A DNA stretch of 64,000 nucleotides from Aureococcus anophagefferens (taxonomy: Eukaryota; Sar; Pelagophyceae; Pelagomonadales; Pelagomonadaceae). Positions 20,624-64,000 of this stretch are shown piece by piece (the stretch's first letter is position 1; every line of letters begins with the position of its first letter). The translations under genes and the position numbers were made by a program. The notes beneath the pieces are model-generated. The model made no database searches and was not told the DNA's origin. It worked only from the letters and a program-made list of their open reading frames with translations. Where the stretch lies: assembly GCF_000186865.1 (NCBI RefSeq), contig NW_008705571.1, forward strand, positions 1,188,465-1,252,464, read 5' to 3'.

Positions 20624-20707
20624 CAGGTTCTGGTATTTGTTTTTGCGTCCTATGGATGCTTTTGCGTCCCTTGTCTCGTTTTGGTTGAAGTTCCCGGGGG
20701 TAAAAGT

Positions 20708-21423: not shown

Positions 21424-21509
21424 GGGACGGGAGCGAAGACGAAGGGCGCGTACAGATGAGCGCGGGCAGCGACTTTCACGGAGATGGATGCGCTAGGGCA
21501 ACCATAACC

Positions 21510-21853: not shown

Positions 21854-21984
21854 AAAGTGTACCTCAACGTCGTTTCGCGGAGCTGCCCTCCATGCCTCGC
21901 ACGGCCCGGCATCGGCGCAAGACAGGATGGCAGCGCGATCCAAAGCACACATCTCCAAAGCACACGCACACACGCACTCGAGCC

Positions 21985-25163: not shown

Positions 25164-26119
25164 CGGGCGCGACGGCTTCGCCCGACCCGGTGACGGATTC
25201 GCCGGACCCCGCCGCGAGCACCCTGCCGCGATAGACGACGAGGTCGACGGCGAGGGCGGAGGCGAGGGCGAGGGCGCGGGCGCGAGGGCGACTCGACGTC
25301 GGACAAGTCGAGCTCGAGACCGCGGCTCGCGGCCGTCGCTCGCGGCCGTCGAGTCGCTCACGGCCGCGCGCGCGCGTCGGTTCCGCTCGCCCTCCGAGCG
25401 AGTCCGTCTCGGCACGGACTCGGTCCGGTCCGGACTCGCGCTGTAAATCACATGTTTGTTGTTACTTGTAGTGCACCCAACTCGCTTAGCCGCCACTGGC
25501 ATCGACGACGCAGGATCAGTGCTTTGGAACATCCATCGAGATATCGACGCCCCTCGGCGCGGACTTCGGCGAATGCGAGTGGAAGAGTAGGTCAATATTT
25601 CGGCGGCCTTCGAGGGCCTCAGTGTTGCGGTTGGCGGCGTCTGAGTCAGAGTTGCATGTTAATTTGTTTCGGCGCGCCCTCTGCTCGGGCGGTCGACCTC
25701 GATCGACTCAGGCATCCGCGATCTGTTAATACTGCTCTTCTCTGGGACATAATACAAGGTGCGCACGACCCCCTCCCGCCGCCCACGGGTCCCCGCTCCA
25801 CCCCCTCCCGGCCGCCGCGGCGACCGGGGGCGCCCCGCGGCGAGCTCGCCCGTCAAAAAAACGTTAAGCGCTTCGGGCCGGCGAAGCCCGCGAAAAAAAT
25901 ACCGGGGACCCCTCAGACCCCCCACCCGCCTCACCAACCCCACCGCACACCCCGTGGTGCACCCGGCCACCCCCCCCTTCGCACCAAAACCACCCAATCG
26001 CCCGCGGAAGACTTGGATATTTTCGGTCCGAACGCCTTCGAACCCCACCGCCCCCCCCCCCCGACCCCTCAAACGGCTCAAAAAGCCCCTCAAACCCGAC
26101 CAAAACCTTCCGTAGCACC
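25164..26119. other. Intergenic region upstream of DUR3: repeats, a lower-GC block and C-rich tracts
   Basis: 956 bp without a convincing gene. 25160-25430 has overlapping gcgagggc- and gactcg-type repeats. 25440-25760 is clearly less GC-rich than its surroundings and could be the remnant of a mobile element, but I see no inverted repeats. 25780-26110 is strongly C-rich on the plus strand, including a run of 13-14 C near 26049, and is probably the DUR3 promoter and 5' leader. Confidence 0.5.
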
Positions 26120-48300: not shown

Positions 48301-51300
48301 ACCCCTTTGCATCGCTCCTGGACGGCCTCGCCGGCGAGTGGGTCGACCCGGCGCTCGCGCTCGGCACGGCCGCGAGCCTCCGGGCGACGGCGCCGGACGT
48401 CGCCGCGCGGCTCGAGCGCTGGGCCGCGACCGTCGCGACGGCGCCGACGAGCGCCGCGCGGCCCCGCCGCGCGCCGAGCGGCGTGCCCGCGACCGTCGTC
48501 GAGTCCTGCGTCGCCTTCGTCCTCGGCACGGCCGTCGCGGCCGACGCGCCGCTGCTCGAAGCCGGGCTCGACTCGCTCGGCGCGACCGTCTTCGCCGAGA
48601 CCCTCGCGCTCGAAGCGTCGGTCCAAGTGCCCGCGACGATCGTCTTCGACGCGCCGTCGCCCAGCGCCGTGCTCCGGTTCCTGTCCCCCGCCGCGGACGA
48701 CGACGGGCCGGCGGTCCCTCTTTCGCGCTCGACGGCGGCGATCGCGCGCGCGGTCCTCCGCTTTCCCGGCGGCCGCCTCGTCCTCGGCCTCGTCGCCGCC
48801 GTGGCGGCGGCGTCGACGCACAGCCCGCGGCCGACGTCGGCGTCCTACGGCGCCTTCCTCCGCGCGAGCTTCGGAGCCGCGACGCTCGGGCGCGTCGAGG
48901 CGTCGACCGTCGACGTGCGCCAGCTCGCGCTCCTCGACGTCGCGGGCGCCCTCGGCCCGCCGCGGAGCGCGGGCGTCTACGTCGCGGCGCTGGGCTTCAC
49001 GCGGCCCCGCGGCGGCGAGGCGCTCGAGCCGAACGCGTACTCGTCGACCGGCGACCTGCTCTCCGTCGCCGCGGGCCGCGTGTCGCACGCCCTCGGCCTC
49101 GAGGGGCCCTGCCTCGCCCTCGACACGGCCTGCTCCGCGTCCCTCGTCGCCCTGGCCATCGCCGCGGCGGCGCTGGGCCGCGGGACCTGCGCGGAAGCGG
49201 CCGTCGCGGCGCTCTCGGTCGTCGAGGCGACCGTGTCCGCGTCGCACGCGGTCGCGGGCCTCGTGTCCCCGCGGGGCCGCTGCCACGCCTTCGACGGCCG
49301 CGCCGACGGCTACTGCCGCGCCGACGGCCTCGCGGCCTACCTCCTCGGCGGCGACGGGCCCGACGACGTCTCGGGCGTCGAGGCGCGGCACGACGGCGGG
49401 AGCGCGTCGCTCGCGGCGCCCAACGGGTCGTCCCAGCGGCGGCTCCTGCGCTCCGTCGACGGGGCCACGATCGCTTTGGAGGCCCACGGCACGGGCACGG
49501 CGCTCGGCGACCCCGTCGAGGTCGGCGCGGCCGTCGACGCGCTCGGCGACACGCGCGCGGCGGCCGTCAAGGGCGTCGCGGGCCACGCGGAGGCCTGCGC
49601 GGCGGCGGCGGGCCTGGCGGCGCTCCTCGGCACGGCCCTCCGGCGCGGGTCCCTCGCGCCGAGCGCCGAGCTCCGGTCGCTGAACGCCTACCTCGCGCCG
49701 CTCGCGCGGACCTTCGCCGCGGCCGCGGACGCGGCGCCGATTCCCGCGCGCCGCGGCGGCCGCCTGAGCTCCTTCGGCTTCAGCGGCACCATCGCCCACG
49801 GCGCCTTCGCGTCGAGGCGCGACGAAGCTTCAGTGCCGCGCCGGGATAGGACGCGCGCGCGGTCGAGGACGGCCCGGGCGATCCGCGAGCCCGAGCCCCG
49901 TTGTTTCGCGGCGCCCTGCGCCGAGCACGTCGTCGCCGGCCGCGTCCTCGCGCCCGGCGTCGCCTACGTCGAGCTCGCCCTCGCGGCGTCGCGCGCCGGC
50001 GCACTCGCGGGGCTCGCGTTCCTCCGACCTGGCGTCGGCGACTTCGAGCCGCGCGTCGCGGCGCGCGGCGGATCCTTCGACGTCCTGGCGCGCCGCGGCT
50101 CGACGGTCACGACGCTCGCGACGGGCCGCTTCTCGGAGGCCCGCGGCGCCCAGCCCGCGACGCGAGGCGTGCCCTCCGCGCGGCGCGTCCGCCGGATCCC
50201 GCCGAAGCCGAAGGCGCCGGCGCCGCGACGCCGCGTCCGTCGGGCGACGCCCGCGAGCGACCCCTGCGTCATCTGCTTCGAGGCGGCGGGCCGGTCGCTC
50301 CGGTGCCGCGTCGCCCGGACGGCGCGCGGCTTCGCGTGGACGCGATGGGCCGGCGTCCGGGGCTCGCGGCCGCGCTTCCGACCCGGCGCGCTCCGCGGCG
50401 TTTTCTTCCGCCGACCCGAGGCGCCGCCGAAGCCGTCGCCCCCGACGCCGACGCGCGCCGCGCTCTCTGCCGTCGCGGCCGAAGCGCCAAAGGCGATCAC
50501 CCGCCGCGCGGCCGCGCGGCGGCGGGCCGTGTCCGTCGAGGACGTGCTCCTCGAAATGACGGGAACCACCCGCGATCGTACGACGCCGCTGCTCGCGGCC
50601 GGGCTCGACTCCATCTCCGCCGTGGAGTTCGCCCGCCGGCTCAGCGCGCGCGCGGGCTCGGACTTCCCCGCGACGCTCCTCTTCGACCACCCGACGGCCG
50701 CCGACGTCGCGGCGCTCGCGGGCTCGGCCGCGGCCGCGCCGACGCGCTCCGCGGATCGCTCCGTCGCCGTCGTCGCCGTCGTCGCGCCCGAAGCGCCGGC
50801 GCCGGCGACGTCCGCGGGCCTCGGCGCCCACGCGGCGGCCCTGCCCGTCGACGCGCTCGTCCTGGGCGCCGTCGCGTGCTCCTCGGCGCCCGCGGGCCGC
50901 GCCTGGCCCCCGGACGCCGCGGCGGCCTACGGCGCCTTCTTCTGTCGCGGCGACGCGACGGCGGACGCCGCGGCGCACGCGATCCGCGCCGCGGAGGCCG
51001 CGGCCATGGATGCGGAGATGCTGCTCCTCCTCGCGGCCGCGTCGCGCCTCGGCGTCCGCGACGACGACGCCGCGGGCGTCTACGTCGGCGCGGGCGCGGC
51101 GCTGGCGGGCCTCGGCGAAACCGCGACGCGGGCGAACGCCTACGCGGGCACGTCGACGGCGCTCTCCGTGGCGTCGGGCCGCCTCGCGCACGTCCTCGGC
51201 TTGTCCGGTCCCGCGGTGTCGCTCGACACGGCCTGCTCCTCGTGGCTCGTCGCCGCGCACCTCGCCCTCGCCGGCGGCTGCGCGCGGGCCGTCGTCGCGG

Positions 51301-52292
51301 CCGCGGGCGTCCTGCGAGCGGGCGCGTCCCGGGCCTACGCCGCCGCCGCCATGCTGTCGCCGCGCGGGCGCTGCCACGCGTGGGACGCGCGCGCCGACGG
51401 CTACTGCCGCGGCGAAGCCTGCGTCGCCCTGGGGCTCGGCGCCGGCCGCGCGGCGTCCGCCGTGCGCCAGGACGGCCGGAGCGCGAGCCTCACGGCGCCC
51501 AACGGCGCCGCCCAGCGGCGCCTCCTCGCCGCCGTCGCCGGGGACGCCGCGGCGGCGCTCGAGGCCCACGGCACGGGCACCGCGCTCGGCGACCCCATCG
51601 AGGCCGCCGCGGCCGCCGCCGCGTTGGCGGACGGCGCGAGTGCCGCGTCCATGAAAGCTGGCGCGGGGCACCTCGAGGCCTGCGCCGCCGCCCTCGGTCT
51701 GCTCGCGCTCCGCGCGGGCGGCGGGGCGAACGCGCAGCTCCGACGATCGAACGCGCACCTCGCGGCCCTCGGCGCCCGCTTTCGGCGCCCCGTCGAACGC
51801 GCCGCCAGCGGCTTCGCGGCGCGGCGCCTCAATTCTTTCGGCTACAGCGGCACCATCGCCCACGCCGCCTTCGACGACGAGAGCCGCTTTCGCGTTTCGA
51901 GCCGGCTCGCGGCGGCGTCGCTCTTTCGCGCCGCGCGCGAATTATTCCCGGTCGGCGACGGCTCCTCGGCAGCTATCTGCGAGCTCGTCGGACGCGACCC
52001 CACCCCCTTGTCCGAAGGCACGCATCTCTCCTACGAGCGGCGCTCATTCGGCGCGCGGATCGAGGGGCGCGTCGTCGTCGGCGACCTCGACGTCGCGTCT
52101 CTGCTCTTCGACCGCTCCGGTGCCTTGCTGGGCCGTCTACAAAGGTCAATTCCGCTCGAAGCCGCCTTCACCGTTGCCCTGTGCACAGCGGCGGCCCTCG
52201 AGACGGGCGTCCTGGACAGAAGCGCGGCCGACGTCCTGGCGATCGACGCGATCGAGTCGCGCCCCGCGAACGCGGTCTGGATCGACGTTTGA
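45381..52292 (+). CDS. PKS core: KS1-FMO-ACP1-KS2-DH-ACP2-KS3
   Basis: Uninterrupted 2,303-codon frame, very GC-rich and without stops. Three ketosynthases have complete Cys-His-His triads: KS1 AACAST / [12 protein letters not shown] / [10 protein letters not shown]2 DTACSASL / [12 protein letters not shown] / [10 protein letters not shown]3 DTACSSWL / [12 protein letters not shown] / KAGAGHLE. A class B flavin monooxygenase is embedded after KS1, a carrier domain (GLDSLG) after that, a DH-like hot-dog after KS2 and a second carrier (GLDSIS). No ATG occurs in frame before about 45908, so it must be translated with upstream sequence. The last 130 codons after KS3 are unrecognised. Assembly-line enzyme making a polyketide of unknown structure. 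Confidence 0.88.
45400..46480 (+). other. Ketosynthase domain KS1
   Basis: Begins around the [11 protein letters not shown] motif (45577), Cys codon at 45792, His of EAHGTGT at 46134, second His in KAAVGHLE, end [12 protein letters not shown]. It lacks the usual RFPG opening seen before KS2 and KS5, and the active-site context AACAST is less typical. Confidence 0.85.
46935..48440 (+). other. Embedded flavin-dependent monooxygenase (FMO/Baeyer-Villiger-like)
   Basis: FAD-binding Rossmann motif [16 protein letters not shown] (46951) is followed by [15 protein letters not shown] second, NADPH-type Rossmann motif is [20 protein letters not shown] (about 47430). The Baeyer-Villiger fingerprint FxGxxxH appears as FRGRVAY, with Tyr in place of His. 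The tail [20 protein letters not shown] extends to ACP1. A monooxygenase between a KS and an ACP is the arrangement of oxygen-inserting or oxime-forming modules in bacterial trans-AT PKSs. Confidence 0.82.
48484..48695 (+). other. Acyl carrier domain ACP1
   Basis: [20 protein letters not shown] then [18 protein letters not shown], with the phosphopantetheine serine in GLDSLG, and [15 protein letters not shown]. Confidence 0.88.
48720..49815 (+). other. Ketosynthase domain KS2
   Basis: RAVLRFPGG opening, Cys in DTACSASL (codon 49131), [40 protein letters not shown] and [11 protein letters not shown]. Complete triad. Confidence 0.9.
49900..50420 (+). other. Dehydratase-like hot-dog domain (short)
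   Basis: [20 protein letters not shown] fits the PKS dehydratase HxxxGxxxxP motif (His codon 49926, Pro codon 49953). The second half of a double hot-dog, with the catalytic Asp, is not clear, so the domain may be truncated or inactive. Confidence 0.6.
50520..50730 (+). other. Acyl carrier domain ACP2
   Basis: [36 protein letters not shown] (Ser carrier) and [17 protein letters not shown]. Confidence 0.88.
50840..51885 (+). other. Ketosynthase domain KS3
   Basis: [18 protein letters not shown], Cys in [14 protein letters not shown] (codon 51234), [39 protein letters not shown] and [11 protein letters not shown]. The [14 protein letters not shown] context is shared with KS4. Confidence 0.9.
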
Positions 52293-52322
52293 CGGGTTCT
52301 GGACTAGTCGCGCTTCCATACT
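51886..52322 (+). other. Unrecognised linker/domain between KS3 and HCS, ending in two stops
   Basis: About 130 codons ([20 protein letters not shown] ... [20 protein letters not shown]) without a family I can name, then TGA 52290 and TAG 52305 in frame. GC content starts to fall here. Confidence 0.5.
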
Positions 52323-53650
52323 ACGAACGTGACGCTACTCGATGCCCAAGGCGCCGTCGCGCTCCGCGCACTCGGCGTACACGCGCGACGCGCCGGCGCC
52401 TCGTCGCTCCCGCCGGTCGCCCGAGACGCCCGGAGACGCCGCCGCGCGGACGAGGCGGGCATCGTCGCCCTGGACTACCACGCGCCGAGTCTCTGCGTCC
52501 GCGCGACGGACGTGGAGCACTTCCACGGCAGCCCCGGGCGCTACACTGTGGGCCGAGGCCAGGAGCTCGTCACTTTCGCGAGCGACGACGAGGACGCAGT
52601 TTCGATGGCGCTGTCGGCGCTTTGTCGGCTGCTCGCTCGAAGCGAACTTGCTTTCGAGGACATCGGCCGACTCGAGTGTGGTACGGAGAGCGGCGTCGAC
52701 CGTGGCAAGTCCACAAAGTCCTTCCTCATGTCTTTGTTCGAGGCGACCGGCGACCTCGACGTCCAGGGCGCGGACGCCGTGAACGCCTGTTACGGCGGTA
52801 CGAACGCGCTCTTGAGCACCAGGAACTGGATTCACGGCCCTGAATGGACCGGGAGGTACGGCGCCGTCGTCTGCTCTGACCCGGCCGTGCACCCGGACCC
52901 GGCTCAATTGGCCGGCGTCGGCGCGTCGGCGGTGTCCTTGCTCGCGGGACCGCGCGCTTCTCTGGCCATGGAGACCCGGTGCACGACCTTCGTCAAGCAT
53001 GCCTGGGACTTTTACCGGCCCATCGGATGGTCGTCCAACGACGCCCTCGTAGACGTCGCCGTGGCTACCAGTCAGTACGAAGAGGCCATGCTCTGGTGCC
53101 AGGGCCGCTTCGATCGTCGCGACCTTCTCCTCGTCTACGTTCGCGTCGCCTACCACTGCAACGCTCCGTACCATGCCAAGCGGAACTTCCGAGTCATGTG
53201 CGAGGCCATGCACGCCCTATCGAAAGGCGATCACGAGCGGCTCTACGACAGGCACGTCCTGCCCGGCACGGCGATCAGCGCTCAGAACGCGACGACGTAC
53301 ACGTGCCCTCTGTACGCGTGTCTTCTTTCGCTCGTTATCTGAGGAACTGACGGACGAGTCTTGTGCTTTTCCTACGGCTCGGGGTGCGCCGCGAGCATGT
53401 TCGCCTTTGAGTCTGACGGCCTCCCCGTCCATCCTTCGGACGCGCTCGAACGTTTGGCGCGTCGAAAGCCGAAGACGATTCCCGATGCGCTGGCTCTGAT
53501 TACCGCTTTTGAAAGCACACACGGCCGCTTCGGCTTCGAGCCATCGTGGTCCTCGGATCGTCAGGATGGCGCGTTTTACCTCGGCGAAGTGACCGCGGTC
53601 GGCGTGCGGGAATACGCGCGGCACGAGTCTCGAGGCGCTTCGCTTCGCGT
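52323..53650 (+). pseudogene. HMG-CoA-synthase-like domain (HCS) of a beta-branching cassette, interrupted by one TGA
   Basis: Clear HMG-CoA synthase family: IVALDYHAPSLCVRATDVE, GTESGVDRGKSTKSFLMSLF (acid/base Glu codon 52686), VNACYGGTNALLSTRNWI (nucleophile Cys codon 52788), GRYGAVVCSDPAVH, KHAWDFYRPIGW and VAYHCNAPYHAKRNF (His codon 53154), so all three catalytic residues are present. The C-terminal hallmark VLCFSYGSGCAASMFAF (about 53361) lies after TGA 53340 in the same frame, proving that one domain spans the stop. In bacterial PKSs such enzymes add an acetyl-derived carbon to a beta-keto-ACP. Whether this copy is translated is unknown. It has no own ATG and lies in frame with KS3. Confidence 0.88.
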
Positions 53651-54863
53651 GCGCCGGGACGACGCCGCCACACGCATCGAGATGGTGCGACCGCACGTGG
53701 ATGACGATTTACTGGCCGATTTCATGCGCGCGCTGGACGCGAACCGCCTTCACATATTTGTGCCTTGCGAGTCGTCGGACGCGGAGCCGGAATCGTCGCT
53801 CGAGCTCGATCTCATCCGGAAGGTGCTCGTCAATGATGTGCGGATCGCGACGATCTGCGCCGGCGCTACGCTGGGTAGGGTCATGCTATTTCTGGCGCTT
53901 TCGGACGTGGTTCTTGGGACGGTGGAGTCGCGATTCGGGTTTCCCGGGGCTCTTCCCGGAGCCGCGTCCGCCGCGCTCGGTCGGCGCGTCTCCTCGCAGC
54001 TCGTGCGGCGTTGGGTGCTGATGCGCGAGATCTTGGACGCCCGCACAGCCATGCTGAGCTCGCTCATTGACGGCATCGCCATGCAAAGGAGCGACGCCGA
54101 GCTCGAGCTGAGCTTGCAGCTGGGACGCTCGAGCCCCCGAACTGAACTCTTGCCAGCGAGCCCTCCTCGCGCTCGCGACGAGCCGACTGCCTCGTGGGCG
54201 CGCGCTGGAGTCCTTCAGCTCGCATTAGGGCCGCTTCCATAGACGCTCGTGGCGCGAAGCGACCTGCACGTGGCCATCGTTTACAATTTTTCCCCTTCGC
54301 CGCGACTAGACGTGCTACGCAACCTGGACGCTCCTCTCCTCGAGGTCGCGTCGCGCGCGGTCACGAAGCTCGCGGACTGGACCGCGTGCGTCCTCGGCGC
54401 CGAGGCTTTCGGTCTCGCGGCTTCGACGCACGACACGGCGGCGACGGCGCAGCAGCACGCGCTTACGCTGGCTTTCACCATCGCGTCGGCTCCGCAGACC
54501 GGGACGCGGAACACGACGCGCCTGCTTCGATTGGACTCGCCCCCCGCGAAGGAATGCCTTCGCCAGCCGGTGTTGGTCGACAAATTGAGCGTCACGTTCG
54601 AAACCATGCTGAATAAAGCAGCCCAACCCTGAAACATGACGATCACAACGCCCGAGCCTGGCGTCGTCAGCTTCCGCTGCAGCAGGCTGTCCGAAACGGA
54701 GCTCCGCGGCGCTATCGCTCAAATGCGACCGACGTCCTGCGTCCACGTATTCTGCATTGGACCGCACGGCGTCGACCGGCAGTGCATCTCGCAGCTGTGA
54801 GAAGTCGCCTCGCGCTGCGAGCGACCCACGTTCGCGATAGTCTCGGGATGCCAGCCCCGCGAA
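53651..54863 (+). pseudogene. Decayed crotonase-like segment(s), interrupted by TAG and two TGA
   Basis: Frame continues from HCS. 53651-54110 resembles an enoyl-CoA hydratase-like domain (VRPHVDDDLLADFMRALDAN, LFLALSDVVLGTVESRFGFP, LIDGIA). Then comes unrecognised sequence (VAIVYNFSPSPRLDVLRN), and a second weak crotonase-like stretch starts at TITTPEPGVVSFRC (about 54640). Stops at 54240 (TAG), 54630 (TGA) and 54798 (TGA) fall inside it without any frame change. The ECH catalytic acidic residues cannot be recognised; homology is weak except for the first part. Confidence 0.55.
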
Positions 54864-56336
54864 TTGCTGTCCGCGGTCGACGTCGTGCTCGCCCACAGTC
54901 ACCAAGCGACCCAGGACGTGATCCTATCTCTCATTGCTCGTCTCGGTGATCTGGACGGTGTACGCGCTTACCTGCGGGCTACGACGCCGGAGGAAGCATT
55001 CCTGAGAGCGGCGACGCGGACCGTCCGTCGCGCGGCGCACGCGGGTCGGAGGCGAGTGCGCCTGGACTTTGAAGACAAAGGCCTGATCCGCACGGAACTC
55101 AACGATCCCACGACGTTCAATGCGCAGACGCCACCTTTCATGGAGAGCCTGCTGTCCTGCGCGCGCGAGGTACGTCGGCTCTGCGCGTTCGCCGACTCGC
55201 CGGCTCACGTTCTCGAGGGTGTAGGCGCCCACTTCTGCACCGGAGGCCGACATGACGAGCATCAGCAAACACAATCATTCTCCGCGGCGCTGGCGGACCT
55301 GAGCGCGCAGAGCTCCATCACCGCGGAGATTCGAGCGTCGCTCTTCGCGACCTCGGCCGCCGTCCACGGGAAACTGATCGGAGGCGGCGTCGCCCTCGCT
55401 CTGGCCGCGGACTGGCGCGTGTGCCCCGAAGCGACGACGTTCACCTTCGGGAATCTCCCGCGGGGCGTCAATCCGATCTTGATGTTCAGCCGGGCGCTGC
55501 CGCTGATGGTCGGACGGAGCCCGGCGTTCCAGATCTACGTCGAAGACGCCGCGCTCTCGAGCTGGGAGCTCCGTTCGCTCGGACTCGTGAACGAGGTCGT
55601 CGCAGACACCGAGGAGGCGAGGCGATGTGCAAAATACGTCGCCGTGGACCGTCCCCTCGCACGAAGCAGCTCCGCGCGGATCTGTTCGACCGACGCAGCC
55701 CACGCCGCGCGAGAGGTGATCTACTTCGCCGAGTCCTCCGCGGCTCGTCCTCGACACGTCGAGACGCATCATGTGACACGTGCACGAGAACCTCCAAGAC
55801 CCCGCGTGCAGATGGCTATGCCAGCCGGCCTCGAAGACGCCGCCGTGATCGCGCGGGTCTTCGAAGTCCTGGGGACCCTCGCCTCTCGCGATGCTCCACT
55901 CATGGCCGCTGGCGTCGACTCCTTGGGCGCCACCGAGCTTCAGAAGGCGCTGAGCGCGGACCTGAGTGTCGAATTGCCGGCGACGCTTCTGTTCGATCAC
56001 CCGTCGGTGTCCGCGATAGTCGAGTTCGTGGCCAGCGCCAGCGAAACAGTCGAGGCGGCGATGAGCCTCGCCCGTGTACAAGCGCCGACGGACACCTCCA
56101 GCGCTCTGGGAGTGTCGAAGGTGACGATGAAAATTGCCGGAGACGTCGCGACGGCGCCTCGACTTCGCGAGCTCGCTTCGGGAGCGAGCACGACGCCCTC
56201 GAGCATACCCGCGACGCGGTGGAACGTCGTCGAGCCTGCGTCTGCGACGTATGGATCGCTCATCGTCGACGGGCTGCGGGTCGACAGTCGGAGCTTCGGC
56301 ATCCAACCGTTCGCGGCCGAGCAGCTCGATCCATAG
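54801..56336 (+). CDS. PKS segment: ECH-like domain, ACP3 and start of KS4
   Basis: Open between TGA 54798 and TAG 56334. The crotonase domain (about 55060-55640): LIRTELNDPTTFNAQTPPF, GVGAHFCTGGRHDEH (oxyanion loop), VHGKLIGGGVALALAADWRV and NLPRGVNPILMFSRALP. The usual catalytic Glu positions are not evident, as in PKS-associated ECH decarboxylases. ACP3 (55820-56040): VLGTLASRDAPLM, AAGVDSLGATELQKALS and [19 protein letters not shown]4 then begins (YGSLIVDGLRVDSRSFG). The segment is less GC-rich than 45-52 kb. ECH next to ACP fits the dehydration/decarboxylation steps that follow HCS in beta-branching. Confidence 0.78.
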   Translation, partial: EVASRCERPTFAIVSGCQPRELLSAVDVVLAHSHQATQDVILSLIARLGDLDGVRAYLRATTPEEAFLRAATRTVRRAAHAGRRRVRLDFEDKGLIRTELNDPTTFNAQTPPFMESLLSCAREVRRLCAFADSPAHVLEGVGAHFCTGGRHDEHQQTQSFSAALADLSAQSSITAEIRASLFATSAAVHGKLIGGGVALALAADWRVCPEATTFTFGNLPRGVNPILMFSRALPLMVGRSPAFQIYVEDAALSSWELRSLGLVNEVVADTEEARRCAKYVAVDRPLARSSSARICSTDAAHAAREVIYFAESSAARPRHVETHHVTRAREPPRPRVQMAMPAGLEDAAVIARVFEVLGTLASRDAPLMAAGVDSLGATELQKALSADLSVELPATLLFDHPSVSAIVEFVASASETVEAAMSLARVQAPTDTSSALGVSKVTMKIAGDVATAPRLRELASGASTTPSSIPATRWNVVEPASATYGSLIVDGLRVDSRSFGIQPFAAEQLDP

Positions 56337-57270
56337 TTCCTCGTGTTGTTGGAGGCCGCCGCTACGTCGTTGCACGAGCGTGCGTCCGCCGACGTCGGAG
56401 TCTACGTTGCGCTGCTTGGATAGCCCGTCGAACGAGCGGCGGCAAGCGAGCTCGCTCCCAAGGGAGCGCAGCAGATATCGGGCGCGTCGGGGCAATTATC
56501 CTTTTCGCTCGGCCTCACGGGCCCTTGCGTGACACTGGACACAGCCTGTTCGTCCTGGCTCGTCGCAGCGCACCTGGCCCGTGCCGCTGTGTTTCGAAGC
56601 GAGTGCTCTCTGGCGACGGCCGCCGGCGCCGGCATCCTCGGAGCCGCGTGCGGTCGCTCGTTTTCCCTCCAGGGCATGCTCTCGGAACGCGGTCGTTGCC
56701 ACACCTACGACAGCCGGGCGGATGGATACTGCCGGGGCGAGGGGTGCGTTGTGGTCGTACTATGATCGACTGGCGAGGCTCGAATCATCGCGCTGGCGGT
56801 GCAAAGCGACGGACCGAGCGCGAGCCTCGCGGCTCCGAACGGATCCGCGCAACGCCGACTCCTCGCGGGCGTGCGCTCTGATTCCTATTCATGCGTAGCA
56901 GCTCTCGAAGCACACGGAACGGGAACCGCTCTCGGAGATCCGATCGAGGTCGGCGCCGCGGCGCTCGCGCTGGAAGACGAGGTCGCGTCAGCGTCGCTCA
57001 AGGCCAACGTTGGGCATCTCGAAGCGGTCGCGGGTGGAGCTGGGACGGTGTCGCTACTGCTGATTCCATTGTTGGCGGCCCAGGTCTCGCCGAATGCGCA
57101 GCTACGGCGGCTCAATCCGCATCTCGACTCTCTCATCAGGGAGGGTGGTTTCTTGATGCCGGTACAGGACGCGCTCCTTCGAGCCACTCACGACACCGAC
57201 GGTCGAGTGAGCTCTTTTGGCGCTACTGGGACCATCGCGCACGGGTTATTTGTGGCACGACGGCAATCAT
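56200..57270 (+). pseudogene. Ketosynthase domain KS4 with three in-frame stops
   Basis: Closest to KS3 ([14 protein letters not shown], Cys codon 56547; [32 protein letters not shown] with His codon 56913; LKANVGHLE). Stops are TAG 56334 in the motif EQLDP*FLVLLEAA, where other KSs have DPQ; TAG 56421 after YVALLG; and TGA 56763 in VVVVL*STGEA. Catalytic residues are intact and no indel breaks the frame, so it is a full-length KS apart from three nonsense codons. Confidence 0.85.
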
Positions 57271-60200
57271 GGAGCTTTGCTCCTCGAAGACAACCTGCGT
57301 CGATGTTTCGTTGTGAAAGTGCTGCTCCGTCCAAGGCTGTTGCCTCTTGGATCGCAATTCCCTGTGAAGAGATTATCAACGAGACGCTCGCTTCTTCGAT
57401 TCGCGAGCAGAGGCAATCGCTTGGCCCATTCTCAATTCTCGCGATCTTGGTTCGAGCGTGCCGCGGCGACGTGTGCAGACCGCTCTCCGCCGTGGACCGC
57501 AGACTCGTGGAGATTCAACAGCGTCTCATGATGCTCGACGTTGCGCTCCTGCATCCTCTGCGGCGCATCCCATCAGCGCGCGCCCCAACGACGCGACGCG
57601 AGAGGACGGCGCCTCGCGTTTTGTTCCTCCACGGCATGGACACCTACGGCGAGTTCCAAGCGCGCTTGCTGGACTGCCAGGGGTGGTCGAAGGCCGCCGA
57701 GTGGGTCACGACGAGCGCTCCGCACCGAGGCGCTGACTTCTCCGGAGGAGCCGGCGGCGTCTCGCTGCGAGCTCGATTCGGATACGAGCCGGGACGGTCG
57801 CGGTCCTGGCGGCTCATCTCCGAGTACTCGGTGACGAGCAAGAGCCAGGCGGAGATGTTCGCCCGGATCCGTCGCGCGACGGACGCGAGCGCCGACGAGT
57901 ACGGGCTGCTGGGCGACTGGGCCGCGTCAGTCGACCTCGTCGTTCGCGCCGCGACCGAGCAAGCTCCCCTGGACGGCATCGCCGGCATCAGCGAGGGCGG
58001 TACGGTGGGCGCGATCCTCTTCTCGCAGCATCTCCGCGGCGAGGTCTACCTCGGCAGCGGCTACCGGGGACGGCTGGTCTTGACGTTCTGCGCGCTGACG
58101 TCGCCCGCGCATTCTCGCATGTACGCGGACCCGATGCCGTGCCTCGCGAGCCTCCATCTGACGGGAGACACGGACACCGCGGACGTATGGCACATGGGTG
58201 GACAGACGGCGGCGCTGTTTGGCCCGTGGTCGGGCTTGGGCCACTTTCGCGGCGGGCACAAGCTCCCGAGGCTGAGCGACGCGTTGAGTCGCACCGTGAA
58301 CGAGCTGCGCGAGCAGAGCTTCGGGCTGAGCGTTCTTCGACGATGGGATCGCTCCGTGCCGTCTCGTTCGAGCGGCGGAACGAGCATCCCGACACGCCGG
58401 GCTCGACCGTTGGTCGAGGCCGCGGCGCCTGTCCGCGTCTCGATTCGGGCGACGGCGACGACGTTGCGTGCTCATTGGCGAGGCAAGGGCGTGCTTCATG
58501 TGGAGGTCTCAGCACAGCTTGATGCCTTGGATGTTGTCCAGAAGCACGCTACGTGTCACGCAGTCGTCTTGGCAAGCAGTTCGCGAGTTGTCGAGAATAT
58601 GGGCGCGATACGAGACTTCTCCGAGCCAGTCGTGTCCGTGCTAGCCGGGCGTGCGGCTTCCATGGACGTCGCACGAGCAGCCGACTGGCTGGTCGCGACG
58701 CGGACTCACATTGGTCGTTGGTCGCTCGCGGAACGCGGCCCGAGCTCCGTCGGCTTCGACTCGGCAGACGCGGCTCGGCTGCTTGGCGAGTGCACGACGA
58801 TGCTGGCCTCCGTCGGTGTCATCGGCGCTCGCAACACGCTCGTGTCGATGCGCGCTGAATGTCAGGAGAGCTTTCATCCGAACGACGTGGTCGCGCGACT
58901 AAAAGAGACGGTGACCGTTTGCGCGATGCGCGGCGCTCGCTTCTGCGCGAGCGGCGTCGTCTTCGGGCGCAGCAGTGCCGTTCTGCTGACAGCACGTGCG
59001 GGTCCCGCTCTCACCTGGCGTCGCGGCGGCATCGTCTGCGTCGAAAGCTCGCGACCGCTCGTCCAGGGCCGCGCGACGTGGTCTCGCGCCGTCGCCGTCG
59101 TCGTCGAGCTCGATGGCAGCGACGACATCTCGGCACGGCCATATGTTCCTATGCTCGCGGTAGTCGAATTCGCTGCTCTTTGGCGTTGCGACTGCGTCGT
59201 CGGGGTCGGAAGAATTCACGGTGCCGACCGCAGGGCCATTTCTCAGTCCGCTGCGACTAGGGCAATTCATGCTTACGCGGATGCGCTTCTCACGACTCGT
59301 GACTCGACAGCGCTGGCCGCACCCCTTCGTCGTCTCGTGGAGCATACCAGCAAGCGATCCATTTCCAAGCCGGCCTTAAGCATGATCCTCCAAGACCACA
59401 CGCTGCGCGTCAAAGCCGACGGAGACTCGGCCGCCTTGAGCGTCATCCTGATGATGAGCGACCGAGCTGGAATCAGGGCGTCTCTCGACAACCGCGATGC
59501 TCCACGCCCCCGCTACCAGCAGCCGGGCTCGTCGCCTTCTTTGACGTGTCGATACAGCACGCTCGCGTCGTCCCACGCGGGTCGCGCGGCTTGGGTCGCG
59601 CTGCTGCTGCGGCCGACGAGCGACTTAGGCATGCCCCGGCTCGTCGTGCACATGTCGTGCGATGAGCCTGGAATCGTGACGCTGGAGCTGAACGACCCTT
59701 CGACTTTGAACGCGATGACGCCGGAGCTGCTGCTGGGTCTGTCGTTCTCGGTTCGCGCGGCGCTCCTACACGAGAGCGCGCGCGGCCTCGTGCTCCAGGC
59801 CGCGGGTCCCCACTTCTGTACGGGCGGGCGGTACGATGCGGCGTCCCAGGGCAAGGTCCCGCAGTGGGTCCACGGGAGCGGGCTCGTGCTCGACCGGATT
59901 CGGACCGCGCCGCTGCGGTCGACGTCCGTGCTGCACGGAGCGTCCATCGGCGGGGGCCTCCTGCTCGGCCTCGCCGCGGACCGTCGCGTGTGTACTCCGA
60001 GAGCAGTGCTCCGGCTCGGCGTCGCTCCTCACGGCCTGAGCCCCATCGTCCGGGCGACGGACGCGGTCCCGCGGACGGTCGGCTACGGAGTCGCGGCCCA
60101 GATGTACCTCGCGGACCACGAGCTGGATGCACAGCAGGCGCTCGCGTCCGGCTGCGTCCACCGCATCTCGTCGGACGCGGGGACGGCGAGGCGCTTCGCG

Positions 60201-63200
60201 CGTCGGGGCGCGTCGGCGAGCGGTCGGACCGTCGAAGCGACGGACACCCGTCTCATCCAGGAGACGCTGCTCAACGGCGAGGCGAGCGGCGCCGTGAGCG
60301 AAGCGCTGTTCGTCATGCTGCTGCGCCGGGCGGCGCCGCGGAGGAGTTTGACAGCCGTGGCGTCCCCCGAGGCGAGCGCGCCCGGCTCGCCGCCGTCGTC
60401 GCCCATCGTCTCGCCGCTGCTCTCCCCGCCGACGTCGCCGGTGACTCGACAAAGCCGGGCCCTCGAGACGGTCGCGTCCATCTGCGCGGCCGTGGCCGGC
60501 GCCCACGTCGACGCCCAGGGCCCGTTGATGGAGGCCGGCGTCGATTCCCTCGGCGCGGCGGAGATCGTCGGCCGGCTCACCGCGGAGTTCGAGCGAGAGC
60601 TGCCCGCGACGCTCCTCTTCGACCATCCGACCGCGGCGGCCATCGCCGCCTTTCTGCAGCCCGGCTGCGTCCTGGAACCGCTGGACCTCGGCCCACCGCT
60701 CCTGCCGCTCGACCCGGCGTCGCCCGACGAGGGCCTGTCGCTCCGCCGGCGGGGCGACGGCGTCGTCGTCGTGACGTACGACCGGCCCGATCGCTCGAAC
60801 GCGGTCGACCGCGCGTCCGCGGCGCGCCTCGCGAGCCTCCTGGCGGCCCTCTGCGACGACGACGCCGCCGGCGCGATCGTCGTGACGGGCGCGGGCCCCG
60901 CCTTTTGCACGGGCGCGCAGTTCGACTCGTTCCTGCGGCGGGACCCCGCGCCGCGGCTCCGCGACGACGTCCGCGACCTGTCCCGCGCGCTCTTCGACGC
61001 GTTCCTCGACGCGTCCAAGCCCGTCGTCGCGGCCGTCAACGGCGCGGCCATCGGCGGCGGGGCCACGCAGGCCGCCCTCTGCGACGAGACGCTGGCGTCG
61101 ACGGCCGCGGCCTTTTCCTGGCCCTTCCGGCGGTGGCGCGCGGCGCCCGAGGGCTGCGCGAGCGCCCACCTCGCCCGCGCCGTCGGCGCCGGAGCCGCGC
61201 GGGCCGCGCTCGTCGGGGGCGTCGCGATGACGGCGCGCGAGGCTCTGGGTCGCGGCCTCGCGCGCGCGGTCGTCGCGCCCGCGCGGCTCCTGGCCCGCGC
61301 GGAGGCCGCGGCCGCCGCGCGCGTCGACGGGAGGCGCCGCGCGCTCCCCGTCGCCGGCCGCGCGCCGGAGGTCTTCCGGGAGTACGGCGTCGCGAACCTC
61401 TGCGAGAGCCACGCGCTCGCCGACGCCGTCTGCCGCGCCGCGTTCTTCGAAGCGTCGCGCGGACTCTTCGAAGACGCGAGCCTCGCGGACGCGGCCGTCG
61501 CGCGCGGGCCGCTCGACGCGCTCCGCCTCCTCGAGTCCCACGGCGACGCCGTGGAGTCGAGCGCGCCCGACGACGCCGTCGCCTTCCCGCCCGCGCTCCG
61601 GCGCCGCCCGCGCGCGCCCGCGCGGCTCCCGGAGCACGCGACGATATCGCGCGCGGTCCTCCGCCTCCCCGGGCGCACGCGCGACCTCGGCGACCTGCGG
61701 AGCCTCGCGGCGCGCGGCCTCGCGGGCACGGCGACGGTGCCGCGCCGGAGGTGGCGGCCGAGCGCGGCGCCGGGCGTCGCCTACGGCGCGTTCCTCGGGC
61801 CGCTCGCGACCGACGCGCGGGCCTGGCGCCTCCCGGCGGCGGAGGCGGCGGCCGTGCATCCCCAGCAGCTCTTCCTCCTCGAGCTCTGCCACGGCGCGCT
61901 CGCGGGCGCGCTCGCGAGCCGCGACGCGGGCGTCTACGTCGGCATCTCGGGGTCGCTCGGCGGCGCGCTCGGCGCGGACACCGCGCCGGGCGCCTACGCG
62001 GGCACGGGCTGCTCCCTCGCCGTGGCCGCGGGCCGCGTGTCCTTCGTCTTCGGCCTCGTCGGGCCGAGCCTGCCCGTCGACACGGCCTGCTCGGCGTCGC
62101 TCGTGGCGCTCCACGTCGGCGCCGCGGCGCTCGGCGCGCGCGAATGCGCGCGCTGCGTCGTCGCGGGCGAGGGGCTCCTCGAGGCCGCCGTCTTCGAGGC
62201 CTTCGCCGCCGCGGGCATGCTGTCGCCCCTCGGCCGCTGCCACGCCTTCGACGCGCGGGCCGACGGCTACTGCCGCGGCGAGGGCGGCGTCGCGGCGCGC
62301 CTCGCGTTCGGGCCGGGAACGGTCGACGCGCGCGCCGCGGCGGTCCGGCAGGACGGCGCGAGCGCGAGCCTCACGGCGCCGAACGGCACGTCGCAGCGCC
62401 GCCTGCTGCGCGTCGTCCTCGACCGCGCCGCCGTCGCGCCCGCGTCCCTCGAGGCCCACGGCACGGGCACCGCGCTCGGCGACCCCGTCGAGGTCGGCGC
62501 CGCGGCCGCCGCGCTCGCGGGGGGGTCGGGTCGCCGCCTCGTCTCGTCCGTCAAGGCGAACTTGGGCCACGCGGAACCCGCCGCCGCCGCCTCGGGCTTC
62601 GCGCTGCTCGTCGCGACGTCCCTTTTGAGCGCGCGCGCGGCGCCGAACGCGCGCCTCCGGCGGCTGAACACGCACCTCGTGCCCATCGCGGCGCCCGAGC
62701 GGGCCGCGCTGGTCCTCGGGTCGGAGGAAGCGCCGCCGTCGGGCATCGCGCGAGCCACGTCCGGCAACCTGAGCTCCTTCGGATTTAGCGGCACGATCGC
62801 GCACGCGAATTTCGGCGTCGACGGCGACGCGAGCCGCGGCCGCGGACGCGACTCGTTCGGAGCGTCGCTGTTCCGCGCGCAGCTGCCGCTGCAATCGCTC
62901 CAGTTCCAGGGTGCGGTGCTGTCTTCGTGTGCGAGCACGCCCAACAGTCGTACGCTTCTGTCTCCTGACGATGACCGCGTTCGAACGCCGCTGTCCTGGC
63001 GGAGCATCGGCTCATGGCCGCTGTACGTGGGTACCGTCCTCGTTGAGTTGCAACAGCGTCTCATGACGCTCGACGTCGCGCTCCTGCATCCTCTGCGGCG
63101 CATCCCATCAGCGCGCGCCCCGACGACGCGACGCGAGAGGACGGCGCCTCGCGTCTTGTTCCTCCACGGCATGGACACCTACGGCGAGTTCCAGGCTCGT

Positions 63201-63383
63201 TTGCTGGACTGCCAGGGATGGTCGAGAGCCGCCGAGTGGGTCACGACGAGCGCTCCTCACCGAGGCGCTGACTTCTCCGGAGGAGCCGGCGGCGTCTCGC
63301 TGCGAGCTCGATTCGGATACGAGCCGGGACGGTCGCGGTCCTGGCGGCTCATCTCCGAGTACTCGGTGACAAGCAAGAGCTAG
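56766..63383 (+). CDS. PKS segment: KS4 end, serine hydrolase A, degenerate crotonase, ECH, ACP4, ECH, KS5, start of hydrolase B
   Basis: 2,205-codon open frame between TGA 56763 and TAG 63381. Domains: end of KS4; FSH1-like hydrolase (57600-58420); a degenerate crotonase-like/unknown stretch (58530-59560); crotonase (59630-60330: LNDPSTLNAMTPELLLGL, GPHFCTGGRYD, HGASIGGGLLLGLAADRRV); ACP4 (60465-60665, AGVDSLGAAEIV); a third crotonase (60740-61330: VTYDRPDRSNAVDRASAA, GPAFCTGAQFDSF, NGAAIGGGATQAALCDE); KS5 (61640-62830); and the beginning of hydrolase B. 59.7-62.85 kb is again very GC-rich, its flanks less so. There is no own start codon of note; probably part of the same polyprotein as the upstream segments. 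Confidence 0.82.
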   Translation, partial: STGEARIIALAVQSDGPSASLAAPNGSAQRRLLAGVRSDSYSCVAALEAHGTGTALGDPIEVGAAALALEDEVASASLKANVGHLEAVAGGAGTVSLLLIPLLAAQVSPNAQLRRLNPHLDSLIREGGFLMPVQDALLRATHDTDGRVSSFGATGTIAHGLFVARRQSWSFAPRRQPASMFRCESAAPSKAVASWIAIPCEEIINETLASSIREQRQSLGPFSILAILVRACRGDVCRPLSAVDRRLVEIQQRLMMLDVALLHPLRRIPSARAPTTRRERTAPRVLFLHGMDTYGEFQARLLDCQGWSKAAEWVTTSAPHRGADFSGGAGGVSLRARFGYEPGRSRSWRLISEYSVTSKSQAEMFARIRRATDASADEYGLLGDWAASVDLVVRAATEQAPLDGIAGISEGGTVGAILFSQHLRGEVYLGSGYRGRLVLTFCALTSPAHSRMYADPMPCLASLHLTGDTDTADVWHMGGQTAALFGPWSGLGHFRGGHKLPRLSDALSRTVNELREQSFGLSVLRRWDRSVPSRSSGGTSIPTRRARPLVEAAAPVRVSIRATATTLRAHWRGKGVLHVEVSAQLDALDVVQKHATCHAVVLASSSRVVENMGAIRDFSEPVVSVLAGRAASMDVARAADWLVATRTHIGRWSLAERGPSSVGFDSADAARLLGECTTMLASVGVIGARNTLVSMRAECQESFHPNDVVARLKETVTVCAMRGARFCASGVVFGRSSAVLLTARAGPALTWRRGGIVCVESSRPLVQGRATWSRAVAVVVELDGSDDISARPYVPMLAVVEFAALWRCDCVVGVGRIHGADRRAISQSAATRAIHAYADALLTTRDSTALAAPLRRLVEHTSKRSISKPALSMILQDHTLRVKADGDSAALSVILMMSDRAGIRASLDNRDAPRPRYQQPGSSPSLTCRYSTLASSHAGRAAWVALLLRPTSDLGMPRLVVHMSCDEPGIVTLELNDPSTLNAMTPELLLGLSFSVRAALLHESARGLVLQAAGPHFCTGGRYDAASQGKVPQWVHGSGLVLDRIRTAPLRSTSVLHGASIGGGLLLGLAADRRVCTPRAVLRLGVAPHGLSPIVRATDAVPRTVGYGVAAQMYLADHELDAQQALASGCVHRISSDAGTARRFARRGASASGRTVEATDTRLIQETLLNGEASGAVSEALFVMLLRRAAPRRSLTAVASPEASAPGSPPSSPIVSPLLSPPTSPVTRQSRALETVASICAAVAGAHVDAQGPLMEAGVDSLGAAEIVGRLTAEFERELPATLLFDHPTAAAIAAFLQPGCVLEPLDLGPPLLPLDPASPDEGLSLRRRGDGVVVVTYDRPDRSNAVDRASAARLASLLAALCDDDAAGAIVVTGAGPAFCTGAQFDSFLRRDPAPRLRDDVRDLSRALFDAFLDASKPVVAAVNGAAIGGGATQAALCDETLASTAAAFSWPFRRWRAAPEGCASAHLARAVGAGAARAALVGGVAMTAREALGRGLARAVVAPARLLARAEAAAAARVDGRRRALPVAGRAPEVFREYGVANLCESHALADAVCRAAFFEASRGLFEDASLADAAVARGPLDALRLLESHGDAVESSAPDDAVAFPPALRRRPRAPARLPEHATISRAVLRLPGRTRDLGDLRSLAARGLAGTATVPRRRWRPSAAPGVAYGAFLGPLATDARAWRLPAAEAAAVHPQQLFLLELCHGALAGALASRDAGVYVGISGSLGGALGADTAPGAYAGTGCSLAVAAGRVSFVFGLVGPSLPVDTACSASLVALHVGAAALGARECARCVVAGEGLLEAAVFEAFAAAGMLSPLGRCHAFDARADGYCRGEGGVAARLAFGPGTVDARAAAVRQDGASASLTAPNGTSQRRLLRVVLDRAAVAPASLEAHGTGTALGDPVEVGAAAAALAGGSGRRLVSSVKANLGHAEPAAAASGFALLVATSLLSARAAPNARLRRLNTHLVPIAAPERAALVLGSEEAPPSGIARATSGNLSSFGFSGTIAHANFGVDGDASRGRGRDSFGASLFRAQLPLQSLQFQGAVLSSCASTPNSRTLLSPDDDRVRTPLSWRSIGSWPLYVGTVLVELQQRLMTLDVALLHPLRRIPSARAPTTRRERTAPRVLFLHGMDTYGEFQARLLDCQGWSRAAEWVTTSAPHRGADFSGGAGGVSLRARFGYEPGRSRSWRLISEYSVTSKS
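57516..58465 (+). repeat. Direct repeat unit A (hydrolase module duplication)
   Basis: 950 bp matching 63051-64000 with no gaps. Similarity starts abruptly at caacagcgtctcatg, just upstream of the hydrolase domain; the preceding KS4 and KS5 are much more diverged from each other. Confidence 0.88.
57600..58420 (+). other. FSH1/LovG-type serine hydrolase domain A (candidate product-release thioesterase)
   Basis: APRVLFLHGMDTYGEFQARL, nucleophile elbow GISEGGTVGA (Ser codon 57990), Asp in LHLTGDTDTADV and His in HFRGGHKLPRLSD give a complete Ser-Asp-His triad in the FSH1 pattern. LovG, of this family, releases lovastatin intermediates in fungi. Here the domain sits in cis behind KS4. Confidence 0.82.
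60465..60665 (+). other. Acyl carrier domain ACP4
   Basis: ICAAVAGAHVDAQGPLM, EAGVDSLGAAEIVGRLTAE and [18 protein letters not shown]. It is preceded by a Ser/Pro linker (SPPSSPIVSPLLSPPTSP). Confidence 0.88.
61640..62830 (+). other. Ketosynthase domain KS5
   Basis: RAVLRLPGRTRDLG opening, HPQQLFLLELCHGALAG, Cys in [14 protein letters not shown] (codon 62088), [38 protein letters not shown] and [13 protein letters not shown]. Complete triad. Confidence 0.9.
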
Positions 63384-64000
63384 GCGGAGATGTTCGCCCG
63401 AATTCGCCGCGCGACGGACGCGAGCGCCGACGAGTACGGGCTACTGGGCGACTGGGCCGCTTCAGTCGATCTCGTCGTTCGCGCCGCGACCGAGCAAGCT
63501 CCCCTGGACGGCATCGCCGGCATCAGCGAGGGCGGTACGGTGGGCGCGATCCTCTTCTCGCAGCATCTCCGCGGCGAGGTCTACCTCGGCAGCGGCTACC
63601 GGGGACGGCTGGTCCTGACGTTCTGCGCGCTGACGTCGCCCGCGCATTCTCGCATGTACGCGGACCCGATGCCGTGCCTCGCGAGCCTCCATCTGACGGG
63701 AGACACGGACACCGCGGACGTCTGGCACATGGGTGGACAGACGGCGGCGCTGTTTGGCCCGTGGTCGGGCGTGGGCCACTTTCGCGGCGGGCACAAGCTC
63801 CCGAGGCTGAGCGACGCGTTGAGTCGCACCGTGGACGAGCTGCGCGAGCAGAGCTTCGGGCTGAGCGTTCTTCGACGACGGCATCGCTTCGTTCCGTCTC
63901 GTTCGAGCAATGGAACGAGCATCCCGACATGTCGGGCTCGACCGTTGATCGAGGTTGCGGCGCCTGTCCGCGTCTCCGTGCGGGCGACGGCGACGACGGT
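63051..64000 (+). pseudogene. Serine hydrolase domain B, near-copy of domain A, with one TAG (cut by window edge)
   Basis: Aligns to 57516-58465 without a single indel (constant offset 5535 bp) at roughly 95-96% identity, differences mainly transitions. The codon at 63381 is TAG where copy A has CAG (57846). Nucleophile Ser (codon 63525), Asp and His of the triad are kept downstream of the stop. Confidence 0.85.

Follow-up and report, generated by a model that had tools for sequence, protein, structure and literature searches.

A putative cis beta-branching module with in-frame stop codons in giant polyketide synthases of Aureococcus anophagefferens

We describe a 64,000-nucleotide stretch of the pelagophyte Aureococcus anophagefferens (contig NW_008705571.1, positions 1,188,465 to 1,252,464 of the forward strand; hereafter the window, whose numbering is used throughout), in which a giant polyketide synthase (PKS) frame devoid of acyltransferase (AT) carries an HMG-CoA-synthase-like (HCS) domain. 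The interval 52323-61330 is read here as a beta-branching module in cis, in the order ketosynthase (KS) - (dehydratase (DH)-like linker) - HCS - ECHa - ECHb - acyl carrier (ACP) - KS, where ECH stands for enoyl-CoA hydratase-type crotonases, in a giant AT-less PKS whose in-frame stop codons are most likely decoded; we give this reading, made from sequence, a probability of roughly 0.6. The wider proposal remains tentative, at a little under even chances: that stop codons have taken on a second meaning in this PKS family (UGA as Arg, UAA and UAG as Gln) while tubulin genes end at TAG or TAA, and that eukaryotes assembled the module independently, through fusion of a eukaryote-derived HCS between KS and ECH. 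The pattern of the stops is more surprising than the module.

The HCS module and its recurrence

Domains were placed by Pfam searches together with our own profile searches, both in the window and in the genome (86 contigs, 49.05 Mb), where the 1.4-Mb contig of the window is labelled C11. The N-terminal HCS domain (PF01154) is matched in 52308-53339 at E 1.5e-47, and the motif offsets place Glu, Cys and His, which we take to be the catalytic residues, in the window copy, with a Glu-to-Cys spacing of 34 that is presumably also that of known HMG-CoA synthases. The original prediction had named this domain with its three residues, several crotonases, two carriers and ketosynthases in the interval, and these searches place them all, KS4 inside the interval and KS3 and KS5 directly outside it (Table 1). 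The absence of an AT that it had noted also stands: none of the nine AT (PF00698) matches of the genome (11 of 11 candidates scored) lies on C11, and one each was found on the C34 and C52 islands, near a KS. Ketoreductase (KR) searches gave 36 matches genome-wide (36 of 78 candidates scored), none of them on C11, C34, C37, C41, C45, C52, C55 or C77, a result that a divergent KR could escape. The active-site Cys motif is retained in 11 of 11 KSs of C11 between 45 and 82 kb, and for KS9 the search of that frame did not recover the HGTGT motif. Two A. anophagefferens proteins match part of the PKS, P0162 at 98% over 14% of the query and P0163 at 48% over 27%.

The HCS module is real, repeated in the genome and under selection. 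PF01154 gave 19 matches that correspond to 17 places (two are split), namely one mevalonate enzyme and 16 places of the PKS type. A KS lies 1,018-1,437 bases upstream at 15 of these 16, and an ECH_1 match at most 5.5 kb downstream at 15 of the 16; this count used the 62 of 125 KS and 30 of 66 ECH matches that lie near an HCS, three of the latter being below the Pfam cut-off. The fusion in cis of HCS, ECH and ACP on an AT-less chain, as originally proposed, is supported by this repetition of an HCS-ECH-ECH-ACP block between KSs of an AT-less eukaryotic PKS. The window module is 96.9% identical, over 7,079 gap-free bases, to a copy 25 kb away, which together with the strength of the HCS match (E 1e-47) means that it is not a chance match. 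Five HCS modules follow one another on one strand in an array of C34 (224.5 to 313.7 kb), and all five have HCS-ECHa-ECHb, then two or three carriers, then a KS, with an ECHc as well in two. In bacteria, beta-branching modules are characterised by carriers in tandem; unlike the C34 modules, the window HCS copy and its sister have a single carrier each.

A search with the HCS piece found 39 relatives, mostly metagenome proteins, in which KS and HCS occur in one protein (P0023, P0024) and a PKS_DH domain (PF14765) lies ahead of the HCS (P0007). We met no earlier description of HMG-CoA-synthase beta-branching in a eukaryotic PKS, nor of a nuclear eukaryotic HCS-KS fusion, in the open literature searched, most subscription journals and preprints lying outside it; the original prediction had likewise known of none.

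The HCS of P0014, from a eukprot data set labelled Rhodomonas salina (cryptophyte), continues past its C-terminal part, and the spread would be wider if this is not contamination. A PKS on C12 (301-316 kb; L027, L031) has KS, KR and HCS matches and no inner stops, its HCS being divided over two frames in an intron-like manner. Directly ahead of the PKS array of C34 lies a direct repeat of ~2 kb, 99.8% identical (C34:216960-221641; L013).

In-frame stop codons in the PKS family

The PKS occupies frame 3 of the plus strand from 45381 to 74285; the part listed in Table 1 closes with a stop at 63383, beyond which the frame continues. The original prediction placed the domains in one frame, and that frame holds only if stops are ignored: it is not open, with 11 in-frame stops that had been overlooked, seven of them within 52323-61330 (53340 TGA, 54240 TAG, 54630 TGA, 54798 TGA, 56334 TAG, 56421 TAG and 56763 TGA). 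The TGA at 53340 splits the HCS, whose C-terminal end (PF08540) is matched only in the following piece, 53343-54239, and two TAGs and one TGA interrupt KS4. The metagenome protein P0003 spans the place of 53340 unbroken, being 78% identical before it and 62% behind; an intron has no room there, because both sides align to the continuous P0003 with two residues between them.

Stretches read of C34, C37, C41, C45 and C52 have a GC content of ~52%, against 72% for the window, and the PKS copies of these low-GC contigs hold many in-frame stops in conserved frames. Ten low-GC HCS copies were compared with 31 of the 39 relatives at columns in which at least 80% of the outside sequences have one residue. 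Arg columns held CGN 82 times, AGG 13, TGA 13 and other codons twice; Gln columns held CAR 22 times, TAR eight times and nothing else; Trp columns held TGG 36 times, other codons four times and no stop. Counted by distinct columns over all HCS copies, the signal is weaker because copies share stops: TGA fell on 16 columns (top outside residue Arg in five, Gly in three, Gln in two and six others once), TAG on 15 (Gln five, Arg four, Glu four, two others) and TAA on seven (Arg three, Glu two, Met one, Gln one). In the profile of low-GC KSs, Arg is the best fit for TGA (by 36.6 log units) and Gln for TAA (by 4.1), in agreement with the HCS columns; its fit for TAG does not agree with them.

Exchange between paralogues, taken as C/T differences over unchanged C in redundant pairs, amounted to 101/260 for CGA/TGA, 35/396 for CGC/TGC, 12/181 for CGG/TGG and 31/144 for CGT/TGT; it was 94/347 for CAG/TAG, 51/576 for CAA/TAA, 33/535 for CAC/TAC, 31/337 for CAT/TAT and 238/774 for the synonymous pair CTG/TTG. 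In 49 non-overlapping blocks, CGA/TGA exchange (22/58) exceeded that of CGB/TGB (25/177; p = 0.004). When TGA is read as Arg and TAR as Gln, the same residue is retained at 0.82 for TGA (CGA 0.79), 0.80 for TAG (CAG 0.78) and 0.70 for TAA (CAA 0.77). The non-stop codons that face a stop in the partner were Arg in 35 of 62 cases for TGA, Gln in 23 of 54 for TAG (Glu in nine) and Gln in 13 of 27 for TAA, the corresponding counts in an unfiltered C34 set being 16/28, 13/37 and 7/18. On such evidence, selection treats the stops of the PKS family like sense codons, most clearly TGA, then TAG, and least clearly TAA. Two other candidates were rejected: selenocysteine for TGA, with Cys in 3 of the 62 partner codons, and context-driven mutation or base-calling, as C/T exchange with the same letters is not raised at the other two codon positions.

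The 49 blocks (10,507 codons, with 110 shared stops in 32 of them) gave a ratio of nonsynonymous to synonymous substitution (dN/dS) of 0.236, of 0.249 once the first shared stop is passed (6,749 codons), and of 0.279 over the 1,876 codons at most 10 codons from a shared stop. C34 alone, without the filter applied to the blocks, gave 0.318 over 4,753 codons and 0.304 behind the first shared stop, with 47 stops shared; here frames were set by the domains in the 25 blocks used (11 outside framed segments were dropped) and agreed in 25 of 25. The window copy pair, compared over the 1,140 codons that follow its shared TGA at 53340, gave a dN/dS of 0.32 (bootstrap 0.23-0.45). Judged by these ratios, the sequence behind paralogue-shared stops is under purifying selection.

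Tubulin genes end in TAG (five) or TAA (two) in the seven readable of nine fetched, and inner stops occur in none of 17 tubulin and none of 15 AMP-binding matches. A kinase gene of C34 (Pfam) has 18 CAR codons and no stop, and a C34 frame that we read as a reverse transcriptase, chosen for being open, has four CGA and 17 CAR codons and no stop. We note separately that 7 of 132 kinase matches (on C22, C29, C31, C35 and C44) contain TAG or TAA and no TGA, which introns and a wider sense use both fit; that a kinase gene is nearly identical on C34 and C49 (L033); and that one open frame, mobile-element-like by our reading, occurs on C34:142501-149500 (L032), near the reverse-transcriptase-like frame of C34, and on C37:262001-263500 (L086).

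Table 1. Domains and other features of the PKS frame in the window
Feature	Position	Strand	Remarks
PKS frame, part in window	45381..63383	+	in-frame stops 52290, 52305, 53340, 54240, 54630, 54798, 56334, 56421, 56763, 63381
Ketosynthase KS1	45381..46370	+	active-site motif DAACAS
FAD/NAD(P)-binding oxidoreductase-like domain	46926..47660	+	PF13450, 1.2e-6; between KS1 and carrier
Acyl carrier domain	48474..48695	+	GLDSL
Ketosynthase KS2	48729..49661	+	DTACSA
PKS_DH_N-like stretch, weak	49851..50180	+	PF21089, 7e-6; slightly under cut-off
Acyl carrier domain	50526..50735	+	GLDSI
Ketosynthase KS3	50874..51716	+	DTACSS; next KS upstream of HCS
Linker ahead of HCS	51717..52427	+	51717-52289 without own Pfam match
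HCS domain	52428..53720 (end approximate)	+	E 52686, C 52788, H 53154; TGA at 53340 inside
ECHa, weak crotonase-like	53733..54182	+	adjoins HCS; without first (FCxG) segment of other aligned crotonases
ECHb crotonase	55041..55700	+	PF00378, 2.7e-16; FCTGG motif like two compared ECH2 sequences
Acyl carrier of HCS module	55821..56045	+	GVDSL
Ketosynthase KS4	56073..57092	+	DTACSS; stops 56334, 56421, 56763 inside
FSH1-type serine hydrolase domain	57591..58295	+	PF03959
ECHb2 crotonase	59646..60206	+	profile search
Acyl carrier domain	60450..60671	+	GVDSL
ECHc crotonase	60741..61445	+	best PF00378 stretch of its piece; FCTGA motif like compared ECH1 sequences
Ketosynthase KS5	61566..62645	+	DTACSA
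Second FSH1-type hydrolase, next similar module	63126..63830	+	profile search

The window also holds a second module type, in the order FSH hydrolase - unannotated stretch - ECH - ACP - ECH - KS (57504-62845), which is tandemly duplicated at 63039-68319 (window numbering, running past the window end) with ~82% DNA identity. For 58296-59645, a part of it, Pfam gives nothing at E <= 1, and the score against a three-sequence set is weakly crotonase-like. Other genes of the window, named by their matches, are a RabGAP-TBC (17396-20620), a sodium:solute symporter (25868-28315) and an alpha/beta hydrolase (33599-36862). GC falls locally to 0.54 at 20001-22000, against 72% overall.

Competing explanations and the ancestry of the HCS

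A number of results weigh against a beta-branching module with decoded stops. On the side of the module, comparison with ECH1 and ECH2 by BLAST gave identities of 19-42% with either type, many of them across short stretches, ECHa is without part of a normal crotonase, and none of the carriers found could be assigned the role of acetyl donor. On the side of the stops, the profile of low-GC KSs prefers TAG as Ala over Gln by 4.2 log units, and among seven stops of the high-GC KSs of C11 and C12 (TAG on Q twice, on A and on V once each; TGA on S twice, on A once) Gln columns account for only two and Arg columns for none. The 11 stop places found in either C11 copy comprise seven that are common, two CAG/TAG and two TCG/TAG. 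CAA/TAA exchange (0.089) is not above that of the missense pair CAT/TAT (0.092), CGT/TGT exchange is fairly high (0.215), and CAR/TAR (24/209) does not separate clearly from CAY/TAY (11/177) in the 49 blocks (p = 0.11); p-values from the redundant pairs are too small because of that redundancy. The 49 blocks had passed a filter on third-position changes that removed 36,951 of 187,374 aligned bases as ambiguous in frame, and low dN/dS is therefore favoured in them. No suppressor tRNA for a stop codon was found among the 35 tRNAs read, a set that lacks a tRNA-Gln as well (63 of 277 candidates scored gave 37 places, of which 36 were fetched and 35 read). A query of the genome with tRNA-Arg(TCG) matched only itself, and one with a human tRNA-Gln matched nothing, a negative that carries no weight.

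The foremost alternative is that stop-bearing copies have become pseudogenes, in decay through point mutations, and that only stop-free ones function. This would suit stops inside conserved domains, the GC of ~52% in affected stretches and the many stops one C-to-T step away from Arg or Gln codons, as well as the frequency of in-frame stops in C34, which at 517 of 22,860 codons (2.3%) is slightly below that of the other five frames (~2-5% by segment); we also count for it the statement, in the part of PMC8629427 available, that pseudogene stops come from certain codons by single transitions, for example UGG. Decay is nevertheless unlikely in our view, since dN/dS behind shared stops stays at 0.25-0.32, and since C/T exchange at CGA (0.39 of unchanged pairs) is above that at CGC (0.09), CGG (0.07) and CGT (0.22), the third-position exchange before GA, GC, GG and GT being of similar order (0.54, 0.65, 0.80 and 0.49). 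Trp seldom turns into a stop (81 pairs of unchanged TGG, with TGG/TGA in two, TGG/TAG in none and TGG/TAA in two), the window copies are free of gaps, and four of the seven C34 ketosynthase frame breaks examined fit introns of 47-52 bases with GT/AG ends at one position.

Equally hard to favour is an HCS that is present for some other job, such as chain release or another kind of branch. The missing donor carrier, the atypical ECHa and the lack of a decarboxylating KS among those found would agree with this; the catalytic residues retained in the window copy, and the ECH matches that follow at 15 of 16 places, speak for branching.

U-to-C editing of the mRNA, turning TGA into CGA and TAR into CAR so that ordinary decoding gives Arg and Gln, has the merit that a single base rule yields all three outcomes, and it fits the HCS columns and the retention data. 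Other first-position T/C pairs are exchanged less freely (CGC/TGC 0.09, CGG/TGG 0.07, CAC/TAC 0.06) than CGA/TGA and CAG/TAG, and the editor would therefore need a strong preference for stop codons across hundreds of sites. Nor is C/T exchange at second positions elevated before GA (0.101, against 0.080-0.149 before GC, GG and GT). We consider editing improbable.

More doubtful still is the derivation of the low-GC contigs from another organism that uses a variant code of its own, the window copy being a partly decayed relative. The difference in GC (~52% versus 72%) and the absence of all 17 tubulin matches from C34, C37, C41, C45, C52, C55 and C77 led us to weigh it, and contamination has been described where the alignment of stops is confined to part of a genome (PMC8629427, part available). 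The window itself, on a 1.4-Mb contig with a GC of 72% where read, has such stops with selection behind them, however, and P0001, which represents a metagenome cluster of nine sequences, ends exactly at a TAG of the window's sister copy, while a complete second eukaryote should bring tubulins.

The ancestry of the HCS was examined in a tree of 45 sequences rooted on five bacterial HCS. The 16 PKS-type HCS fall together in one clade (100/100), which is nested in a eukaryotic clade of 36 sequences (100/100) and adjoins a Blastocystis protein, and the five bacterial HCS form a separate one (99/94). Grouping the PKS-type HCS with the bacterial beta-branching HCS was rejected (AU test, p = 2e-47), as was grouping them with the alga's own mevalonate enzyme on C1 (p = 6e-7; 100% identical to A. 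anophagefferens protein P0044 over the 50% covered) or with pelagophyte mevalonate enzymes (p = 1e-5); a clade of eukaryotic mevalonate enzymes without the PKS sequences gave p = 0.03. The solved structures nearest to the HCS are the HMG-CoA synthases 7cqt, 2f82, 2wya and 2p8u (160-180 bits), presumably the plant and human enzymes, followed by 5hwp (81 bits), which we take to be bacterial; 8s81, an HMG-CoA-synthase-like protein, is last of 15 structure matches (24 bits). Few lineages beyond algae are included in the tree. The bacterial references are plasmid records labelled from neighbouring genes, the Azospirillum one showing a PKS and no ECH; four of the 16 PKS sequences carry X at stops, two are under half filled, and warnings concern long branches (haloarchaeal, P0039, Streptomyces Lnm-type) and odd composition in Blastocystis.

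On this tree the HCS is of eukaryotic HMG-CoA-synthase descent and not of the bacterial PksG type. The original prediction had seen in the alga a system otherwise encoded by separate bacterial proteins; a transfer of the bacterial system into the alga is not supported by the tree. It had also named a stray insertion of an HCS grouping with the mevalonate enzyme as what would speak against a module; that grouping is rejected and there are 16 PKS-type places. A PksG/CurD-type cassette gained by gene transfer and then fused has the same HCS-ECH-ECH order and the tandem carriers of C34 to recommend it and is very improbable given the position of the HCS within the eukaryotic enzymes and the rejected bacterial clade. 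The arrangement argues strongly for the name beta-branching module, whereas counting it with the bacterial cassette family is contradicted by the ancestry of the HCS and by the absence of a decarboxylating KS, one that has lost its active Cys, among the 11 KSs of C11 at 45-82 kb. Beta-branching modules in cis, put together independently in eukaryotes, are the best reading.

Proposed working and comparison with known systems

We infer the following course for the module. The upstream KS would leave a beta-ketoacyl chain on the module carrier, because no ketoreductase was detected there, and the HCS would attach an acetyl carbanion at the beta-ketone to form an HMG-like branch. One crotonase may then dehydrate and the second decarboxylate this branch, so that the chain would proceed with a beta-methyl or exomethylene branch. 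As it derives from a eukaryotic HMG-CoA synthase, the HCS probably takes acetyl straight from acetyl-CoA, which would account for no decarboxylating KS being found. Malonyl units would be supplied by an AT in trans. In the PKS family UGA is most likely decoded as Arg and UAA and UAG as Gln, in which case the frame would give one long protein.

HMG-CoA-synthase beta-branching cassettes of bacteria are of the PksG/BaeG, CurD, MupH and LnmM types and occur mostly in trans-AT PKSs. The algal modules resemble them in an HCS followed by two crotonases, in the lack of AT and, in the C34 copies, in tandem carriers. They differ in that the algal HCS is eukaryotic by descent and fused in cis, whereas each of the five annotated bacterial stretches has its HCS as a gene apart, close to PKS genes, in that the active-site Cys is kept in all 11 C11 KSs, and in that no dedicated donor carrier was identified. 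With the mevalonate HMG-CoA synthase of eukaryotes (PDB 2f82, 2p8u) the algal HCS shares ancestry and catalytic residues; unlike that enzyme, it is embedded between KS and ECH and forms its own clade, apart from the C1 enzyme.

Among the nearest known systems are also the AT-less modular PKSs of Emiliania, Chrysophaeum and chlorophytes, which are large, modular and served by AT in trans (PMC4661987, PMC10366177; parts available). The Chrysophaeum PKSs lack AT and, like the window PKS, have FAD domains (PMC10366177). No HCS modules were met in these algal PKSs: the available text of PMC4661987 is without 'HMG', 'ECH', 'enoyl-CoA hydratase' and 'stop codon', that of PMC10366177 without 'HMG-CoA', and that of PMC10756674, which covers PKS expression in A. 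anophagefferens, without 'HMG-CoA' and 'stop codon'. In the part available, PMC4661987 gives 56 'free-standing' KSs for A. anophagefferens, a significant number of which it regards as belonging to type I PKSs, and calls re-annotation 'less straightforward'; frames broken by stops could explain why these PKSs resisted it.

Codes in which stop codons have a dual meaning are found in Condylostoma, karyorelict ciliates and Amoebophrya, and the algal case is like them in that UAR acts as Gln while TAG and TAA end other genes. It is unlike them in that UGA acts as Arg and in that the pattern is seen clearly in one gene family only. The meanings of UGA named for nuclear codes in the available parts of PMC11687900, PMC6394959 and PMC8629427 are Trp, Cys and Gly, Arg not being among them. 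No report on Aureococcus stop codons or readthrough, or on stop recoding in algal PKSs, appeared by title among the matches listed.

If the module works as proposed, A. anophagefferens would possess beta-branching machinery in cis that arose independently in eukaryotes, offering a genetic handle on beta-branched polyketides of algae. If its stops are indeed decoded, a recoding confined to one family, with UGA as Arg, would add a new type of departure from the genetic code, in an alga that can be cultured.

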